Source: a virus. Taken from it: a stretch of DNA of 22,246 nucleotides. The notes under the pieces were generated by a model that was not told the origin of the DNA, searched no databases, and saw only the letters and a list, made by a program, of their open reading frames with translations. Every line of letters starts with the position of its first letter. Positions within the stretch are counted from its first letter, which is position 1. Of this stretch, positions 1,938 to 22,246 are shown in pieces. Made by a program: the position numbers and the translations under genes. The stretch lies in the IMG/VR virus record IMGVR_UViG_3300042465_001630, positions 1-22,246 of that record; one strand, given 5' to 3'.

Positions 1938-3617
1938 TCAGTTCCTCAATTTTTCTTCAAGGCGTTTTCTGGCGGCGTCCAAGTCCTTGCCGCCGCTGGC
2001 TGGCTTGCCGGGCGTAGCGCTGCGCTGATTTGTCGGCACCGCCTTGATGCCGCCGAAGATCTTCTCTGTCTCAGACTCAAAGCCCTTCTTGATGTCTTTG
2101 TACAGGTCCGACTTCCGCTCAAACTCGAGGTACGGCCGCCCGGGGTTTTTGTCTTGCCATTGACGGAAAGCGTCCACCACATCGATGTCGTACTGCGACC
2201 GGGCCTTGAGCAGCTCCATGCGAGTCTTGAGGACTTCTGGGCTGGTGCTGGTGGTGCCGGGGATGGCCCGAACGATCTTGCGCTCGCCTTCGGTGACAGC
2301 ACCCTGCTTGGCCAAGTACAGGCGCGTGAAGGCCAGCTCGATTTCGGCCAGCTCTGTTGCGGCCTTGGTGACGTTGTCCAAGTCTCTTTGCGTGACGCCC
2401 GGCATCATTTTGCGCATGCTGTCTTCAAAGCCAGCAAGGTTCAAGGTGCCGCTTGGCGTTTGAATGCCCTCTTTGATCAGGTTGCCAATCGCAGACGTAA
2501 TGCCGGGTCTGGCAAAAATGCCAAAGTAATTTGGGCTCTGCTTGAGGTAATCTGAAACCCTTGTGACGCTGCCGTAAATACGGCGAGCCGTCGAGTCGGC
2601 ATCCTCAATGCCAGCCTCTTTTGCGGCACTTGCTTCGCCCAGTTTCGCGGAGCGCACTTTGGCCTCTTCGGCGGCATTAGCTCGTTCTTCTTTTGACGCG
2701 GGTGCTGCCCCACTAAACGACTTGCCGGTGTATTTGTCAGCCAAGGCTTTGTACCCGGCCGTATTGCCTTGACGTTGAAGCTGATAAAGTTGCATGGCAA
2801 CAGATTCAGGAACCGTGAAAGTCTTGCCTTCGTAGCCTTCACCAAAAATCTGAATGTCGATCGGCGCGGCCTTGTTTGGATAAAACTTGCCAGTGGCAAT
2901 GTTGGTAGTGCCGGACTCTTTTACCTCAAGGTTTTTCCGCTCGAGTTCTTGCCCCTCTTTCAAAAGCTCGCCCAAAGGCCGCCCGCTGTTTCGATTGAGT
3001 TCGACGTAAGCCCTCGCGGACATGAAGTTTTTATTTGGGGGGAATATCTGAATACCCCCGTCGTCCTCAGAGTCATCCGACAGTGCGCCTTTGGGTATTT
3101 TCCCAACTACCGCAGGCAGAGCGCCACCAGAAAGAGAGCCCGGGGCACTGACCGGTGCAGCAGTTGCCACATCAGGAGCGGCAGGTTCTTTGGGCGTTGG
3201 GGCAGACAACGGGCCAGCTTGAGGCGGTGGTTTGGTCTGTGGCCCCGCTGGTTGGGAGCCGCCGAGCCAATTGGAGATGGATGCGTCCTGCGACCTCATG
3301 CGTTGCAGCTCGACGCCTTTACCGGCGGCGGCAACCCGCTGCTGGGCAATCTCCTGCTGCAGCTTCATTTCCTGCTCTTGAGCAGCGCTGACGTTTTTTG
3401 CAACATTGCCAAGCGACTCCCCAAACCCGCCGGTCTGAGTTGGGGCCAAAAACCCTTGGGCGGCCGCAAGCCACGTCGGGTCAAAGAACCTGTTCTTGCG
3501 CGTGTCGAGGGACTGCGACAGCTTGGCCAACGCCTCTTGGTAGAGCTGGTTTGCCTCGAGCATGGCCGGATCTTGTCCGGAACCGAAACCGGTAGTTGCT
3601 GCTTTTGAGGTGGCCAT
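1938..3617 (-). CDS. Probable internal virion / DNA-ejection protein (T7 gp15 position)
   Basis: This 559-aa protein has no enzymatic motif I can recognise. Residues 1-120 are helical and Gln/Ala-rich, about 120-170 is a Pro/Ala-rich linker, and 230-500 is mostly helical with many charged residues and short coiled-coil-like stretches. The C-terminus is Lys/Arg/Glu-rich. It sits between another internal protein and the transglycosylase protein with 2-base gaps, the arrangement of the ejection-protein block of T7-like phages (gp14-gp15-gp16). GAGGG lies about 9 bases before the ATG. The assignment rests on gene order, size and composition, not on a clear sequence match; scaffolding or another core protein is possible. 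Confidence 0.6.
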   Translation of the reverse strand: MATSKAATTGFGSGQDPAMLEANQLYQEALAKLSQSLDTRKNRFFDPTWLAAAQGFLAPTQTGGFGESLGNVAKNVSAAQEQEMKLQQEIAQQRVAAAGKGVELQRMRSQDASISNWLGGSQPAGPQTKPPPQAGPLSAPTPKEPAAPDVATAAPVSAPGSLSGGALPAVVGKIPKGALSDDSEDDGGIQIFPPNKNFMSARAYVELNRNSGRPLGELLKEGQELERKNLEVKESGTTNIATGKFYPNKAAPIDIQIFGEGYEGKTFTVPESVAMQLYQLQRQGNTAGYKALADKYTGKSFSGAAPASKEERANAAEEAKVRSAKLGEASAAKEAGIEDADSTARRIYGSVTRVSDYLKQSPNYFGIFARPGITSAIGNLIKEGIQTPSGTLNLAGFEDSMRKMMPGVTQRDLDNVTKAATELAEIELAFTRLYLAKQGAVTEGERKIVRAIPGTTSTSPEVLKTRMELLKARSQYDIDVVDAFRQWQDKNPGRPYLEFERKSDLYKDIKKGFESETEKIFGGIKAVPTNQRSATPGKPASGGKDLDAARKRLEEKLRN

Positions 3618-15090: not shown

Positions 15091-16586
15091 CAGAAGGTCC
15101 CGCCCTGAACACCCCCAGTAAAGTTGCCGGTGCCCGGTATGTTTAGCCCTGTAGCGGTCAGGCCGAACAGCTTGACGCCCAAGATTGCAATACCGAATTC
15201 ACCAGATCCGGGGCGGTAAATACCCGTTGACGTCTCAGTCGCAAAGTTCAGAGATGGAGCGCCCACAGTTCCATCCACCAGAGAAACGTTTACCGCACCG
15301 GCGGCAATCGTTGAGGCGTTCAGCAAGTTGACCGAGTCGCACAGCAAGATCACCTGCTGGCCAGCGGGGACGGTCGCCGTAGCGCCGCCCGCGCCTGTGG
15401 TGAAGGTGATCTGGTATCCGGGGCCGCCACCGTTTGTCTGGTTGGTGATGTAATAAATCTGCACCGTCTGAGGCAACGTGACGGTGACGTTGCCTGTCAG
15501 GGTTCCGGTGTACTTCTGAATTGTGTTGGCCGCCTCTGAGGCGCTCAGGGTGTAGCTGCCGGTCACCACGGCCTTGGTGAGCTGGGTAAAATTGAACTGC
15601 GTGCTTCGACCCAAGCCGACGGTGAAGAAGGCAGATCCGGAGCAACAAATGACGCAAGAGTCTGCAGGCTGCAAAGAAATTGTTGACGCTGCGTTGATCT
15701 GTATTCCACCGGCGGGGGCAATGGTCAAAGTACCAGACCCACCGTTTCGGACCATCATGTACCAGTCGTTGCCCAGTGTGACGGCTGACGTCAGCGCTAG
15801 GGTGCCGGAGCCGCCAGTCCAGACGTAGGTTGATGCGCGGTCGGTGGTCAGTGCGGTGTAGTTGGACGCAAAGGTGTTGACCTCATTGGCGGCGTTCAGG
15901 GTGTTAGAAATAGCCTTGAGGCCAAACCCTGCAAGAGTTGCGGCGTCGACGTTGGAGGTGCCGACGCCAAAGGCTATGAGACCCCATGTTCCCGCCGTGG
16001 TGGCGTTGCTGGTCAGATAGATGTACTTGGCCTCACCGGGGGCGATTGTGACGATCGTGCCACCAGCGTAGGTCCTGACCTCAAAACTGTAGGAGCCGAC
16101 GTTGCGGAACAGCGCGTCAATACCCACAGACGCCTGATTTGCAGGCGGCATGTCCAGCGTGAAAGAGTCCAGCGTGAACGTCAGGCCAGTGGTTGTGCCA
16201 GCCGTGGTGGCCACCGCCGTTCCGCCGGAAGTGGCTGACAGCGTAAAGGTGGTTGACCCATTGGTGAGGATGATGTAGTAGGTGTTCCCAGCAACAATCC
16301 CGGTTGAAGTCCCAGTCAAAACTCCGGTGACAACAATCGCTTGGCCAACAAACAGGCTGGGGGTAGCGGTGCAAGAGCATTGCCCGTTTGTGCCTGCGAC
16401 GGTGACGCCCGCAAGCACCAATCCGCTTGAGAGCGACGTGACGTCCATGACCCGGGCGGCTGCGTTGTCTGTGTCGCTGCCGTTGATTGGCCACGACAGC
16501 GTACTGTCTGCGGACAGCGTGATTGAGCGGTATGAAACGTCGGTCGGCTGAATGACGGTTCCCGTGAAGGGACTATTAAAGCTCAT
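15090..16586 (-). CDS. Beta-rich virion protein, probable tail fibre or decoration protein
   Basis: This 498-aa Thr/Ser/Gly/Ala-rich protein is almost entirely beta strand and resembles phage fibre or tail-associated proteins. The N-terminal domain has ARVMDVTS (44-51) and, after an apparently inserted beta module (about 55-138, with GQAIVVTG and AGNTYYIILTNG), resumes with SFTLDMPPANQASVG (141-155) and LFRNVGSYSFEVR. The C-terminal part has the fibre-type motif SLNFATETSTGIYRPGSGEFG followed by GVKLFGLTATGLNIPGTGNF. It lies between the adaptor and the nozzle-like gene, where T7 has no gene, separated from the adaptor only by the GIY-YIG gene. Its AAGGTGA Shine-Dalgarno is inside the end of that nuclease gene, and the ATG overlaps its TGA. 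Host-receptor binding is plausible but not shown. Confidence 0.7.
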   Translation of the reverse strand: MSFNSPFTGTVIQPTDVSYRSITLSADSTLSWPINGSDTDNAAARVMDVTSLSSGLVLAGVTVAGTNGQCSCTATPSLFVGQAIVVTGVLTGTSTGIVAGNTYYIILTNGSTTFTLSATSGGTAVATTAGTTTGLTFTLDSFTLDMPPANQASVGIDALFRNVGSYSFEVRTYAGGTIVTIAPGEAKYIYLTSNATTAGTWGLIAFGVGTSNVDAATLAGFGLKAISNTLNAANEVNTFASNYTALTTDRASTYVWTGGSGTLALTSAVTLGNDWYMMVRNGGSGTLTIAPAGGIQINAASTISLQPADSCVICCSGSAFFTVGLGRSTQFNFTQLTKAVVTGSYTLSASEAANTIQKYTGTLTGNVTVTLPQTVQIYYITNQTNGGGPGYQITFTTGAGGATATVPAGQQVILLCDSVNLLNASTIAAGAVNVSLVDGTVGAPSLNFATETSTGIYRPGSGEFGIAILGVKLFGLTATGLNIPGTGNFTGGVQGGTF

Positions 16587-17308
16587 AAGGTCACCTTGTT
16601 TTCTGCAAGCCGTTGCGCTTTGCTTATGGCTTTTGTGGCTATGTTGGAAGCCCTAATTTTTGCCTTAGTTTCTTCGGAGTGCTTGCGCCCCAAAAAACTT
16701 GCATGTTTAGACTTTTCTGATTCTGGCATCTTGCGACCAAGAAGCGATTGACGAATTTTCTGTTTAGTTTCTTCGCTCATTGGGTTTCTGGGTCTGGCTT
16801 TATGGGCAGCCGACATTTTGGCGCGAACTTCTTCAGAAGCGGTCTTGCCAAGATTCTTTCCCTTCAGGCTGATGCTTCTTTTTTCAAGCGTGACAAAAGT
16901 TGGTTTTTTACCTTTGGTTCCGTATTTTTTTGATCTTTCCTCTTGCGTCAAGCTGGCCACATAAGCAGAAGAGGCAATCTTGCGGATTTTCTTTTCATGA
17001 TCCGTCATTGGCCAACCAACAACACCCTCGCCGCCGTCTGTTAGGTTGTAACCCAAAGGGGCTTTGGTATTGTGCTGCTGAATGAGCATTCTCTCAAGGT
17101 CGCAGGCGGCCTCAAAATCAAACGCATCGCAGATGTGAGAAAAAACAAACTTGTCAGCCCCATGCTTTTTGATGGCCGCATGGAGCGCGGGGGCGCTTCC
17201 ATTTGCAGACATGTGCTGCTTGAGCCTGCGATCTAAATTTTTGGTGAGGCCAACGTACTGCTTACCGTTGCAAGCATTGGTCACAATGTAGAGAGACCAC
17301 GTTGTCAT
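16583..17308 (-). CDS. Free-standing GIY-YIG homing endonuclease with NUMOD3 repeats
   Basis: This 241-aa protein has an N-terminal GIY-YIG nuclease domain (about 1-95): LYIVTNACNGKQYVGLTKNL holds the two key tyrosines (Tyr7, Tyr18), with Arg27/28, His32, the metal-binding Glu72 and Asn88 in GYNLTDGGEG following in family order. Residues about 145-230 hold basic NUMOD3 DNA-binding repeats (MSEETKQKIRQSLLGRK, HSEETKAKIRAS). Such proteins cut DNA at a homing site and spread their own gene. It sits exactly between adaptor and fibre-like genes, with ATGA overlaps at both ends, and looks more AT-rich than they are. GAGGGA precedes its start and lies within the last codons of the adaptor gene. All catalytic positions appear intact, so it is probably active. 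Confidence 0.92.
   Translation of the reverse strand: MTTWSLYIVTNACNGKQYVGLTKNLDRRLKQHMSANGSAPALHAAIKKHGADKFVFSHICDAFDFEAACDLERMLIQQHNTKAPLGYNLTDGGEGVVGWPMTDHEKKIRKIASSAYVASLTQEERSKKYGTKGKKPTFVTLEKRSISLKGKNLGKTASEEVRAKMSAAHKARPRNPMSEETKQKIRQSLLGRKMPESEKSKHASFLGRKHSEETKAKIRASNIATKAISKAQRLAENKVTL
16583..17308. mobile_element. Seamless endonuclease insertion bounded by ATGA overlaps
   Basis: The GIY-YIG gene occupies the whole interval between adaptor and fibre-like genes and starts and ends in an identical ATGA (17305-17308 and 16583-16586, minus strand). Deleting it with one ATGA copy leaves the adaptor stop overlapping the fibre ATG, with GAGGGA at normal spacing: a standard coupled junction. 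Confidence 0.7.
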
Positions 17309-17940
17309 GAATCCCTCGCAATCGCCTGACGATCAGCGCCACGGGTGACGTTTTCCGTCTTCAGGACTTCAATAATTCGGTCATAGTTGCTCTGCCACAT
17401 AGGCATGCGCTCGTCGTTCTTGAGGAACGGCATGGCCTGCAGCAAAGTGCCGTACAGCAGCGCCTGCGGGGCGTACTGGGTGAACCAACTGGATTGGTTC
17501 GATGAGTCCAAAGGCTGCACGCGCTGGTAGTACAGCACCTCGTAGGAGTAGGCCAAGGCAGGCGTTGGGCCTACCAGCCAGTGCTCGTAGTCGTAGTCGC
17601 AAAAGTACAGCGGGGCGTCCGTTGAGGTCGGGTCGGGCCAATACTCGCGAATGTACTCATAGGTCCGCAGCAGCACGGGTTGGCGCTTGCCTGCCACTGT
17701 CACGTTCATTGACACCGTCTTGCGCCACCGGGCAGGCTTGGGAATGACGTTTTCACCGAGGACCATGGTGCTCGTGGCCACAGTCAGGTTGCCAAGGAAC
17801 TTGATCTCGGCCGCAATGACTTGCTCCGCCAGCATAATGAACTGCGGAATCTTGTCCAACGTCTGCTGGTCAGTACGCTCCAGATAGGTCTGGATGTCGT
17901 TCACCAGCGAGTCATACGTCATCACGGCTGCGACAGTCAT
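17305..17940 (-). CDS. Neck / head-tail adaptor protein (T7 gp11, SU10-adaptor type)
   Basis: This 211-aa helical protein begins MTVAAVMTYDSLVNDIQTYL and continues with a helix ending PQFIMLAEQVIAAEIKFLGN, typical of podovirus adaptor proteins that dock between the portal and the tail nozzle. The central beta part has RWRKTVSMNV and a Tyr-rich stretch (FCDYDYEHWLVGPTPA, then YSYEVLYYQRV). A C-terminal helix carries PFLKNDERMPMWQ. Length matches T7 gp11 (about 196 aa). GGAG lies 6 bases before the ATG, just past the stop of the HNH gene. Position before the nozzle-like gene supports the role, although the fibre-like gene and a mobile endonuclease now intervene. Confidence 0.75.
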   Translation of the reverse strand: MTVAAVMTYDSLVNDIQTYLERTDQQTLDKIPQFIMLAEQVIAAEIKFLGNLTVATSTMVLGENVIPKPARWRKTVSMNVTVAGKRQPVLLRTYEYIREYWPDPTSTDAPLYFCDYDYEHWLVGPTPALAYSYEVLYYQRVQPLDSSNQSSWFTQYAPQALLYGTLLQAMPFLKNDERMPMWQSNYDRIIEVLKTENVTRGADRQAIARDS

Positions 17941-17951
17941 GTTTTTCTCCG

Positions 17952-17996
17952 TTAGCCGACGTTGCGTTCAAAGTGCGGGCAATCGACCAGCGACTT
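17952..17996 (-). pseudogene. Displaced 3' end of the endolysin gene
   Basis: The final codons of the HNH frame encode KSLVDCPHFERNVG. M15 L-alanyl-D-glutamate peptidases typically end WGG[DN]W..(F/L).D.PHFE, and the endolysin upstream stops matching after WGGN. The segment fits as the original continuation of that gene, left downstream when the endonuclease gene arrived. Confidence 0.75.
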
Positions 17997-18494
17997 GAAA
18001 TAATACGTTACTGAGCCGTATTCCACGTTTAGCGCCCGCGCAATGGCCGCCGTTGATGCTCCGATATTTTTCATTTTAACTGCCATTCCTTTTTTTTCTG
18101 CCGTCATTTTGTGGCGGTCAGAATTTCTGCAATTTACAGCCTGACTGACATATCGGAGGTTTGCAATTTGATTGTTGACCTTGTTTCTGTCAATGTGATC
18201 AACCACAAGGCCGTCTGGGCACTTTGACAAAAAAGTAGACGCCATCAGCCGATGGACAAGCAGGGTGATGTGTTTGTTTTCAACCGTTGTGTTGAATCTC
18301 AAGTACCCATCCTTGTCTTTGCGAGTCTTCAACTCTCGGCCTTTGACCTCGCATGAATATGGAGATTGACCCCTTGAGAAGCTATGCTTGATTCGAGTTT
18401 TTGTAAAAACCCGACCGCATCGCGTGACAAGAAGATGATCGTACATGGTTTGAAATTTTTCAAGATCCAACTCTTCGGAACTCTGGTTTTCCAT
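17952..18494 (-). CDS. HNH homing endonuclease with C-terminal HTH, fused to a former endolysin tail
   Basis: This 180-aa protein has an HNH_3-type core: LLVHRLMASTF (78-88), VVDHIDRNKVNNQIANLRYV (97-116) with His100 and the Asn residues of the ββα-metal fold, and NCRNSDRHKM. Residues about 140-166 form a helix-turn-helix (MKNIGASTAAIARALNVEYG), as in many homing nucleases. The last 14 residues (KSLVDCPHFERNVG) do not belong to that family: they match the end of an M15-type endolysin. The start lies inside the endolysin gene (35-base overlap) with AGAGG upstream. The gene is AT-richer than its neighbours. The mapped overlap and tail show it inserted at the 3' end of the endolysin gene. Catalytic residues look intact. 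Confidence 0.9.
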   Translation of the reverse strand: MENQSSEELDLEKFQTMYDHLLVTRCGRVFTKTRIKHSFSRGQSPYSCEVKGRELKTRKDKDGYLRFNTTVENKHITLLVHRLMASTFLSKCPDGLVVDHIDRNKVNNQIANLRYVSQAVNCRNSDRHKMTAEKKGMAVKMKNIGASTAAIARALNVEYGSVTYYFKSLVDCPHFERNVG

Positions 18495-18537
18495 CTGGGC
18501 CTCTGGAGAAGTGTGGTGTGTCCACCAATGTTACTCC
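18460..18537 (-). other. Replacement 3' end of endolysin supplied by the inserted element
   Basis: Codons for residues 99-123 restore LVDxPHF but differ from the displaced copy at 17952-17996 in 8 of 21 bases across those seven codons, almost all at third positions apart from the ACA/TGC change. The final 35 bases double as the start of the HNH gene in another frame. Confidence 0.65.
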
Positions 18538-18831
18538 ATTGCCACCCCATGAGTTAGCTTTATTCAAAGACTCCCAAAACGCGCCGAGCGGGGCGAGCTG
18601 CCCCTTGTCCCAGATGATTTTACCGTCTTTGAAGAAATTTAGGTCGATTGCGCAGCGCTTGAGATGAATCGAGTTCAGCGTCTTGGACCGACCTGTGTTG
18701 AAGTAAATGGCCTGCTGCTCTGGGGTGCGTGCCAATTCCCCACCAGTGACCTTAAAACCGGCCTCTGTGGCGTGCTGGATCAGTTTGCAGGCATCCAGTA
18801 GGAAATCGGCCTGCTCGTCGCTGAGACTCAT
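18460..18831 (-). CDS. Endolysin: L-alanyl-D-glutamate peptidase, M15 (VanY-like)
   Basis: This 123-aa enzyme would cleave the peptide side chain of peptidoglycan to lyse the host. Zinc ligands are visible in order: SIHLKRCAIDL gives His56 and Asp63 (SxHxxxxAxD), and LVDTPHF gives His107. Asp104 in the same motif is also typical. Length is close to the usual 125-140 aa. There is no signal peptide, so it needs the holin to reach the wall. A perfect AAAGGAGG Shine-Dalgarno and an ATGA overlap with the holin gene support the start. From about residue 99 the protein departs from the family: the usual Trp after WGGN is replaced by GVT, and a 15-residue tail (SRGPDGKPEFRRVGS) follows the zinc motif, written in AGA, GGA, CCA and ACA codons unlike the rest. 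That tail was probably supplied by the HNH insertion; activity seems preserved. Confidence 0.88.
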   Translation of the reverse strand: MSLSDEQADFLLDACKLIQHATEAGFKVTGGELARTPEQQAIYFNTGRSKTLNSIHLKRCAIDLNFFKDGKIIWDKGQLAPLGAFWESLNKANSWGGNGVTLVDTPHFSRGPDGKPEFRRVGS

Positions 18832-19346
18832 TCCTTGCCTCCTTTGCGCATTTCCATGATTTTCTCAACCGTGCGGCCACCGAAGTAGGCCGTCATGACC
18901 AGCATGCCCCACTGACCAAGCAGCGCGACGTAGGACTCGCTGATCTTGTACCCAGCACCGTCAAGCATGGCAAAGACCACATAGGCCGTCAGAAGGTACA
19001 CAAGGGTCCCGGGGCGCACGTTCTTGGACAGCCACGAGTCGGAGGACATGTCAGCCTTCCAACGGTCGCTGATGTTGTCACCTTCGTTGGCGGCAGCAGC
19101 AAGCAGGGCTTTCAGTTCCTCTTGCTCGAGGCGGGCCTTTTCGATGCCAAGCTCAAGCAGGCGCTCCTCATGGTCAAACTGAAGCTGGCGCAGCTTGCTG
19201 ACCTCTTCAGGGTTGGGGTTGTCGGAGATCTTGACGCCAAGGGCGTTCTCGACAACCTCCTTGCCTTTTGCTTGGATCGCAGAAGACAAAAGACCCAAGC
19301 CGCTGGAAGCAAGGGTGCTAAGTAGGGTGGCAACAATTGGGATCAT
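18828..19346 (-). CDS. Holin, three-transmembrane gene-transfer-agent type
   Basis: This 172-aa membrane protein has an N-terminal hydrophobic segment (IVATLLSTLASSGLGLLSSA, about 4-23), a long charged helical middle (about 25-100, LRQLQFDHEERLLELGIEKA) and two C-terminal membrane segments (about 113-130 and 140-158). KNVRPGTLVYLLTAY at the loop/membrane border is the signature I associate with the GTA_holin_3TM family. It would form the inner-membrane lesion that lets the endolysin out. It sits immediately before the endolysin with an ATGA overlap, and starts in an ATGA overlap with the previous gene after a GGGAGA ribosome site. Adjacent gene order makes the lysis role firm. Confidence 0.85.
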   Translation of the reverse strand: MIPIVATLLSTLASSGLGLLSSAIQAKGKEVVENALGVKISDNPNPEEVSKLRQLQFDHEERLLELGIEKARLEQEELKALLAAAANEGDNISDRWKADMSSDSWLSKNVRPGTLVYLLTAYVVFAMLDGAGYKISESYVALLGQWGMLVMTAYFGGRTVEKIMEMRKGGKE

Positions 19347-20845: not shown

Positions 20846-21334
20846 TTAGTTAGATTTGGCGTATGCGCCGTGATACAGAGATCGTGCTTCGGTTGCGACA
20901 AGACCAGCCAACTCCAAGTCCTTGAAGTAGCCAATCAAATGTGACTTGCCGTTTTTCATGACACGCACAAGCCATGCTTTGCTTTTCTTGTGCCAAGACA
21001 CACCGGGGTAGCCTGATGTGTTGCTTGCCAAAGCGTTGCGGTTGCACTGGTTCTCGCTGCGTGTAGCTGGTCGCAGATTCTCAATGCGGTTGTCAGCACG
21101 GTCGCCGTTGATGTGGTCAACTTCTGGAGGAAGATAACCGTGGTGCAGCATGAAGATCAAGCGATGCGACTTGTGAACCTTGCCACGCCATGTGATGTGA
21201 CGATAGCCCGTCTTGTGGATTGAGCCAGCAGGTTTGTCCATCATGTGCTGTTTGTTTGGATGGCTTACGCCTTTCCAATACAAGTACCCGTCACGGTACT
21301 CAAAGCAGTCTGATACGTCTTGTTGAGTAATCAT
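20846..21334 (-). CDS. HNH homing endonuclease with AP2 DNA-binding domain
   Basis: This 162-aa protein starts at the ATG one base after the tail-fibre stop (TGACATG). An in-frame extension upstream to 21439 would encode a Leu-rich stretch that is only the fibre C-terminus in another frame. The HNH_3 core is SHRLIFMLHHGYLPPEVDHI (56-75) followed by NGDRADNRIENLRPATRSEN, with His57, Asp73, His74 and Asn82/86 in place. The C-terminal AP2-like domain has SGYPGVSWHKKSKAWLVRV (107-125) and IGYFKDLELAGLVATEAR. This is a classic mobile endonuclease. It has no good Shine-Dalgarno of its own, so translation is probably coupled to the fibre gene. Confidence 0.9.
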   Translation of the reverse strand: MITQQDVSDCFEYRDGYLYWKGVSHPNKQHMMDKPAGSIHKTGYRHITWRGKVHKSHRLIFMLHHGYLPPEVDHINGDRADNRIENLRPATRSENQCNRNALASNTSGYPGVSWHKKSKAWLVRVMKNGKSHLIGYFKDLELAGLVATEARSLYHGAYAKSN

Positions 21335-21335
21335 G

Positions 21336-22246
21336 TCAAGCAACAATCCAATTTGAGCCATTGTAAAAGACAGGCACAACAACAGAACCGCCACCAACAA
21401 CTGTAGCAAGAGCAACAGGAGCCAGCGCATCGGTGACATATGTGCGCATACCTACAGTACCTGTTGGTAACGTGGCAACCGTGTAGCCCGTGGTTTGCAG
21501 CGGCCCAGACACTTGAAGTTTTGCAACACCAGTGGCAGAAGTCAGGCCAACAAGATATTCCCCGTTTGCTGTAAGAGTGGCCGCTTGGGTGAAGGTGATG
21601 GCGTTACCTGCTGTGCCCGAGGGGGCGATATTCCAATTGTGCTGCCCGTTAAGTTGACGATAGAGTGTTGGTGCAGTACCTGTGTTGAAATATGCGTATG
21701 CGCCCAAGCTGGATTGGTAATAAGCACTACCAATTTCTATCTGAAGATTAGTTCCAGATGCGTAGCTTGCAACAGAGCCACCGGGCATTTGAAGCGCTTT
21801 AAACCCACCGGTCCAAGCACTAGGAGCAACCCCTAAGCCTAGATTGCCGGAGGAGTCTAGGCGCATACGTTCTTCGGGGTATCCATCAGTGTTATCAGCA
21901 GTTCCAAATATCAAAGAACCTTTGTAGTCACTTGTAACGGCACTTTCTCTAAAACTCCAAATAGAAGCGTAAGTGCTGTATGTACTCGCGGTAAGTTGTG
22001 CTCTGAAATTTATACCGCCGCCAACACCTACTGCAAATGCGGTGGTGTCGGTAACACTAAGCGCCATCGTATTAAATGACGCAATACTGTTTAAAGTGGT
22101 GGCACGAGCAGCGGCAGAATCGGTTTTTGTGAATGGCAAAGTCGTCCCAATACCTAGGTTGCCGGAGGCGTCGATAATTGCCGACGTGTTGTTACCTTGC
22201 CCTGAAAGACGCAGCCCGTTTTCGGCGCGAATAGCAAGTTGGTTTG
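21336..22246 (-). CDS. Tail-fibre protein, 5' end beyond the right edge
   Basis: The frame stays open to the window end, so at least 302 residues are visible and the true start is missing; a TTG at 22139 is only an internal codon. The protein is beta-rich and Gly/Ser/Thr-rich with fibre-type turns: DASGNLGIGTT just upstream of that TTG and LDSSGNLGLGVAPSAW within. The C-terminus (MRTYVTDALAPVALATVVGG, then VPVFYNGSNWIVA) is a conserved ending that I recognise from many phage tail fibres. No chaperone (peptidase S74) domain follows, so the ending itself is the natural terminus. It probably determines host binding. Confidence 0.85.
   Translation of the reverse strand, partial: NQLAIRAENGLRLSGQGNNTSAIIDASGNLGIGTTLPFTKTDSAAARATTLNSIASFNTMALSVTDTTAFAVGVGGGINFRAQLTASTYSTYASIWSFRESAVTSDYKGSLIFGTADNTDGYPEERMRLDSSGNLGLGVAPSAWTGGFKALQMPGGSVASYASGTNLQIEIGSAYYQSSLGAYAYFNTGTAPTLYRQLNGQHNWNIAPSGTAGNAITFTQAATLTANGEYLVGLTSATGVAKLQVSGPLQTTGYTVATLPTGTVGMRTYVTDALAPVALATVVGGGSVVVPVFYNGSNWIVA

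Follow-up and report, generated by a model that had tools for sequence, protein, structure and literature searches.

The stretch of DNA analyzed here (hereafter, the window) comprises 22,246 nt of IMG/VR virus record IMGVR_UViG_3300042465_001630 and carries, on its minus strand, a lysis module with a holin-like gene, an M15 endolysin gene, an HNH gene, and a virion structural gene. The holin-like gene (18828..19346; phrog_3427 holin, E 4.6e-15) gives the upstream lysis-cassette context of the endolysin, a 123-aa protein of the L-Ala-D-Glu peptidase type (18460..18831; PF13539, 26.4 bits; phrog_465 endolysin). Next come a homing-endonuclease-like HNH gene of 180 aa (17952..18494) and a virion structural gene (17305..17940; phrog_2941), the latter being the same neighbor that is found beside many alleles lacking the HNH gene (“empty” alleles). 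The HNH protein matches PF13392 (HNH_3, E 5.8e-12) and the proven homing endonuclease I-HmuI (PDB 1u3e, E 2e-13), with an intact core; I-HmuI itself is intron-encoded. Its start codon, with an AGAGG ribosome-binding-like motif immediately 5′, lies inside the endolysin gene, and the resulting overlap (18460..18494) is 35 nt long in every carrier measured. The endolysin ends in WGGN followed by GVTLVDTPHFSRGPDGKPEFRRVGS and the HNH open reading frame (ORF) in YYFKSLVDCPHFERNVG, both located as claimed in an original prediction made from the sequence of the window. The motif at the end of the HNH protein, hereafter the captured tail, has one match in the window and none in 100 dinucleotide shuffles. 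The same structure is repeated in contigs of many separate metagenomes, and is thus not an assembly artefact.

Endolysin relatives were taken from the best 80 returned by a scan of viral contigs, with other fetched loci added for classing. Overall, 135 distinct loci were classed: 9 carried the HNH gene, and the HNH-less ones had either a short tail (98 loci) or a long one (28 loci). Short tails are of the PHFER type, with the typical pattern WGG(N/S)F(K/R/S)(S/T/N)LVDCPHFERNV(G), and typically end in WGGNFKSLVDCPHFERNVG in a single frame; many of these loci have the same next gene as the window, and their DNA runs on into it unbroken. As anticipated, these HNH-less relatives read WGGNFKSLVDCPHFER in one frame and match the window both in the captured DNA and in the gene that follows. 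When the window was compared to two empty alleles (blastn), the match ended at 18563 and restarted at 18001 for L026, and ended at 18565 and restarted at 17999 for L066, and these sharp junctions support an insertion inside the last endolysin codons. In the alignment, the left junction falls after GGGAGTC..TG (codons WESL) and the right one before TTYAAG (codons FK of FKSL). Between them, a 565-bp cassette (18000..18564), made of a foreign endolysin 3′ end and of the HNH gene up to codon Y165, stands in place of 27 bp of native sequence, i.e., the nine codons HPKNRWGGN. The endolysin had been thought to depart from its family right after WGGN, but on DNA the break starts nine codons earlier, both in blastn matches and at the alignment junctions. 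The cassette, delimited through its junctions with empty alleles L026, L066, L029, and L021, its length, and its GC content (45% vs 55–57% in the flanks), measures exactly 565 bp and is lower in GC than its flanks in 7 of 7 tail-fused carriers. Because empty relatives carry an identical tail whose DNA is continuous with the native downstream gene, the last 15 residues of the HNH protein (FKSLVDCPHFERNVG; 17952..17999, stop codon included) are the displaced original endolysin tail.

The substitute tail of the endolysin, NKANSWGGNGVTLVDTPHFSRGPDGKPEFRRVGS (18460..18564), resembles the end of a sister endolysin lineage, which we identified by scanning for the pattern WGGNGxx(L)VDxPHFSRG. Members of this lineage have no HNH gene directly after the lysin (0 of 24 loci) and natively end in L(N/H)PLNSWGGNGVKLVDTPHFSRG.GKPEWRRVT, in short WGGNGVKLVDTPHFSRG.GKPEWRRVT. 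Ahead of the cassette, the window endolysin is closer to short-tail lysins (mean protein identity of ~87%) than to the sister lineage (69%), while its tail shows 66% identity to short tails and 92% to sister-lineage tails. Since the tail belongs, on these segment identities, to the sister lineage, carrier lysins are chimeras, with residues 1–89 of the window endolysin assigned to the short-tail lineage and residues 90–123 to a foreign C-terminal part that continues the frame of the host gene. In an N-terminal DNA tree, all carriers and all alleles that have lost the HNH gene fall inside the short-tail clade (support 100/100), and the sister lineage falls outside it, with the exception of L017 and L162. 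These two loci combine a sister-lineage tail with a short-clade N-terminus, and display neither an HNH gene nor an NKANS signature, which may reflect either a tail swap without an endonuclease or one long after its loss. HNH-less relatives with the substitute-type tail, which the original prediction had listed as evidence against it, do therefore exist, yet they are explained by the sister lineage supplying the tail and by HNH-loss alleles, three of which still include a fossil of the captured tail.

Residues H56, D63, and H107 are invariant in the endolysin alignment, and we take them to be metal ligands based on knowledge of the M15 family and on the alignment to PDB 8q2g and 5opz, which the endolysin matches by sequence and by fold (Foldseek probability 0.94–1.00, with modest E values). 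The predicted lysin model (pLDDT 76) matches ChiX, LysECD7, and, weakly, the T5 endolysin, and the H...D...H ligands along with the M15 fold place the protein in the M15 L-Ala-D-Glu peptidase class. The codon of H107, the third predicted zinc ligand (18513..18511), is within the foreign tail, so that the codons of the active site are separated by the insertion, with the cassette giving back the missing predicted ligand. The idea of a substitute 3′ end that keeps the zinc ligand thus stands, amended in that this end is a naturally foreign one that also includes the nine upstream codons. Judging from its sequence, the chimeric lysin is likely active.

Next, we evaluated the mobility of the cassette. 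Carriers, known solely as metagenomic contigs without a cultured phage or host, are polyphyletic on the N-terminal tree, whose well-supported branches require six label changes or more. Filled and empty alleles also occur in near-isogenic backgrounds: the lysin N-terminal DNA of L008 (filled) is 94–95% identical to that of L066 and L029 (empty), with upstream and downstream flanks 96% and 92% identical, respectively. Between the window and L001, pS was 0.23 in the lysin N-terminus and 0.00 in the compared substitute-tail and HNH body segments; between L001 and L008, the N-terminus reached 0.72, compared to 0.06 for the substitute tail and 0.36 for the HNH gene. Around the cassette, a 748-bp tract (18660..17914) is identical between the window and L006, with upstream blocks of only 63–71% identity, as would be expected from a recent transfer with short co-conversion tracts. 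For more distant carriers, the HNH body has diverged as much as the lysin N-terminus, which indicates that those splits are old and that only some transfers are demonstrably recent. With occupied and empty alleles found at one site and spread horizontally, the cassette is mobile and has undergone repeated horizontal transfer.

Overall, we consider that a free-standing HNH gene homes in a 565-bp cassette that also carries a rescuing foreign endolysin 3′ end (probability of about 0.8), an explanation for which the anatomy of the locus, the chimerism, the sharp empty/filled junctions, the repeated transfer, and the existence of tail-loss and HNH-loss derivatives are directly supported. General phage recombination could, however, spread the cassette without any HNH activity, and this counts against homing. 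Phage genomes are mosaic, and ordinary homologous or illegitimate recombination may have moved a lysin 3′ end and its neighboring HNH gene with the endonuclease as a passenger rather than the driver, in line with the tails of L017 and L162 being swapped without an HNH gene or long after its loss. We regard this as unlikely given the identical junctions in diverse backgrounds, the fixed length of 565 bp in seven carriers, the several pairs with low cassette divergence inside high-divergence flanks, and the intact I-HmuI-like HNH core.

Across carriers, the captured tail has changed almost exclusively through synonymous mutations, with a pN/pS of 0.054 compared to 0.044 for native lysin tails and 0.235 for the HNH body. 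This could signal that the tail was recruited for a functional role in the HNH protein, e.g., DNA contact, and is kept by selection, and a helix extending to residue 171, into FKSLVD, would be compatible with such a role, although the HNH structure model is too weak to interpret (pLDDT 51). Yet this level of constraint equals that of native lysin tails, and pS is higher in the captured tail (0.77) than in the HNH body (0.64). With a pN/pS close to that of native tails and a pS above that of the HNH body, the tail was most simply contributed by each recipient at the time of invasion, instead of traveling with the HNH gene. In the window, this tail also keeps in place the native stop codon, along with the ribosome-binding surroundings of the gene that follows. 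Further, the HNH genes of L011 and L015 have no captured tail, which makes a recruited function doubtful and indicates that the tail, although acquired as predicted, is dispensable. Among the matches listed, those to HNH homologues outside this locus stop by query residue 172, so that none was found ending in the tail at an unrelated site, and members of this HNH family located elsewhere, whether in phage records or at 12 distant bacterial loci, showed no captured tail.

L011 and L015 indicate that there are at least two forms of the cassette. Both combine the foreign tail with an HNH gene that has its own stop (YYFSKI), which in L011 is mutated with the frame continuing to QSAKM, and their 3′ flank restarts at the native-tail stop codon of the empty relative L079. 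These could represent either the ancestral form or a tail-deleted derivative. Both cassettes (L011 3338-3862 and L015 3338-3847) have a GC content of ~31%. The displaced native C-terminus, which otherwise lies downstream of the inserted one and is the closer of the two to relatives, is absent from these two loci. Five HNH-loss alleles retain the foreign tail, either with a native-tail fossil (L007, L012, and L016) or without a clear one (L014 and L239). In L007, the foreign tail is followed by TTGCCCGCACTTTGAGCGCAACGTCGGATAA, a native-tail fossil joined at an AGTC microhomology; in L012 and L016, which may derive from one event, a shorter fossil is joined at TTGA, so that these fossil joins are all 4-bp microhomologies. 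In L239, the cassette tail is followed by unrelated sequence, which makes it one more HNH-loss allele. Four states, namely empty, filled, tail-deleted, and endonuclease-lost, thus coexist at this locus.

Two other endonuclease genes are encoded on the minus strand of the window, and no tail capture was found for either. A GIY-YIG gene with NUMOD3 (16583..17308) sits in an ATGA junction between two structural genes; it is skipped by the alignments in L007, L026, and L207 and present in L001 and L018, and is another polymorphic free-standing endonuclease. An HNH_3 gene with a weak AP2-like match (20846..21439) follows a fiber gene whose C-terminus is conserved, and is missing at that place in L006. 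Elsewhere, L229 and L231 (~2880-3417) include an HNH-like ORF directly after an ORF with similar C-terminal 45 residues, which we rejected as tail capture because these are probably tandem related endonuclease genes.

Two further readings of the insert fare poorly. An origin of the substitute tail through local duplication of the native one followed by divergence, which would account for the LVDxPHF common to both tails, is highly improbable when substitute tails are this much closer to sister-lineage tails than to short ones and share with them SRG and the GKPE extension. HNH ORFs are common in phage introns, but a self-splicing group I intron or an intein whose mature product regains WGGNFKSLVDCPHFER is the least credible reading, since an Rfam scan of 17700-19000 yielded no intron family match up to E 1 and no exon-frame-restoring fold (only one sub-threshold match to an unrelated cis-regulatory family), nine native codons are replaced rather than interrupted, the insert brings its own PHF tail and stop codon, and HNH-loss alleles retain the substitute tail next to a broken original. 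The HNH gene, with its own start codon overlapping the lysin, is thus free-standing, outside of any intron or intein, as originally proposed, and that interpretation as a whole proved largely right.

Homing of the cassette with its rescuing end would proceed as follows. The HNH protein would nick or cut the uninterrupted short-tail allele close to the WGGN|FKSL codons, an activity we infer from the family of the enzyme and from how the alleles are distributed. Repair of the break from a carrier would then copy the cassette into the active-site codons, with WESL on one side and FKSL on the other. As the foreign 3′ end substitutes for the lost end in frame, zinc-ligand histidine included, lysis would survive without splicing, while the HNH frame reads into the displaced native tail and borrows its stop codon. 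Finally, the target would be both split and recoded by the foreign tail, leaving carriers and HNH-loss alleles immune. Somewhat less firmly, we favor viewing the cassette as a natural home-and-rescue element, in which the HNH protein would cut lysin active-site codons, the recoded foreign end would both rescue the enzyme and destroy the target, loss of the HNH gene would leave an immune tail-swapped lysin, and repeated invasions would ratchet tails between lineages.

The closest precedent is found in fungal mitochondria, where mobile ORFs form gene hybrids in Allomyces macrogynus atp6 and in Glomus atp6, atp9, cox2, and nad3 (PMC3630166). As in these cases, an endonuclease ORF enters a gene with a foreign C-terminal part that replaces the native one, and the native C-terminus, matching close relatives, is displaced downstream. 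The present cassette differs in its dsDNA phage context, its I-HmuI-like HNH enzyme, its lysis gene target, the in-frame fusion of the displaced tail to the endonuclease, and the coexistence of empty, filled, tail-deleted, and endonuclease-lost alleles. It works like the Allomyces atp6 hybrids without being a member of that group, since the window is a virus record that encodes a phage holin, an endolysin, and virion structural proteins rather than a fungal mitochondrial genome. Within the literature searched, this trick has so far been described only for fungal mitochondria; the open-access literature provided these fungal precedents and no phage one, with subscription journals mostly outside the search and priority therefore unproven.

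Among phages, the free-standing seg and mob endonucleases of T4 are mostly found between genes (PMC2988022). Most free-standing endonucleases lie in such intergenic gaps, since insertion into a coding sequence would break the host gene. The cassette shares with these and with I-HmuI a free-standing gene, polymorphism at one site, a co-conversion-like tract, and an HNH_3 domain, but is located inside a coding sequence and carries a replacement for the disrupted part. Coding insertions are known for mobE in Aeh1 nrdA and mobA in T4 gene 60, where an HNH gene also interrupts a part of a phage gene that is critical for function and the halves reassemble (PMC2988022). Unlike in mobE/nrdA, the first part here would be complete through its foreign end and the displaced piece redundant. 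Judging from the sequences, a gene-in-pieces arrangement requiring both polypeptides is unlikely, as the first polypeptide keeps all conserved residues and the displaced tail is deleted or broken in L011, L015, L007, L012, and L016. By analogy, the cassette also resembles HomeR, an engineered home-and-rescue CRISPR drive in flies that targets the conserved 3′-terminal coding sequence of an essential gene, which it rescues with a re-coded 3′ end (PMC7968924), a likeness of logic only, with the nuclease step being putative here.

Taken together, these results suggest that, in addition to using introns, inteins, or gene splitting, an endonuclease may enter an essential phage gene by bringing along the end of the gene that it breaks, and they provide a natural parallel to engineered rescue drives. 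The available alleles, whether empty, filled, eroded, or post-loss, would allow for direct testing of the homing cycle, and the cassette may provide a mechanism for swapping catalytic tails between lysin lineages.
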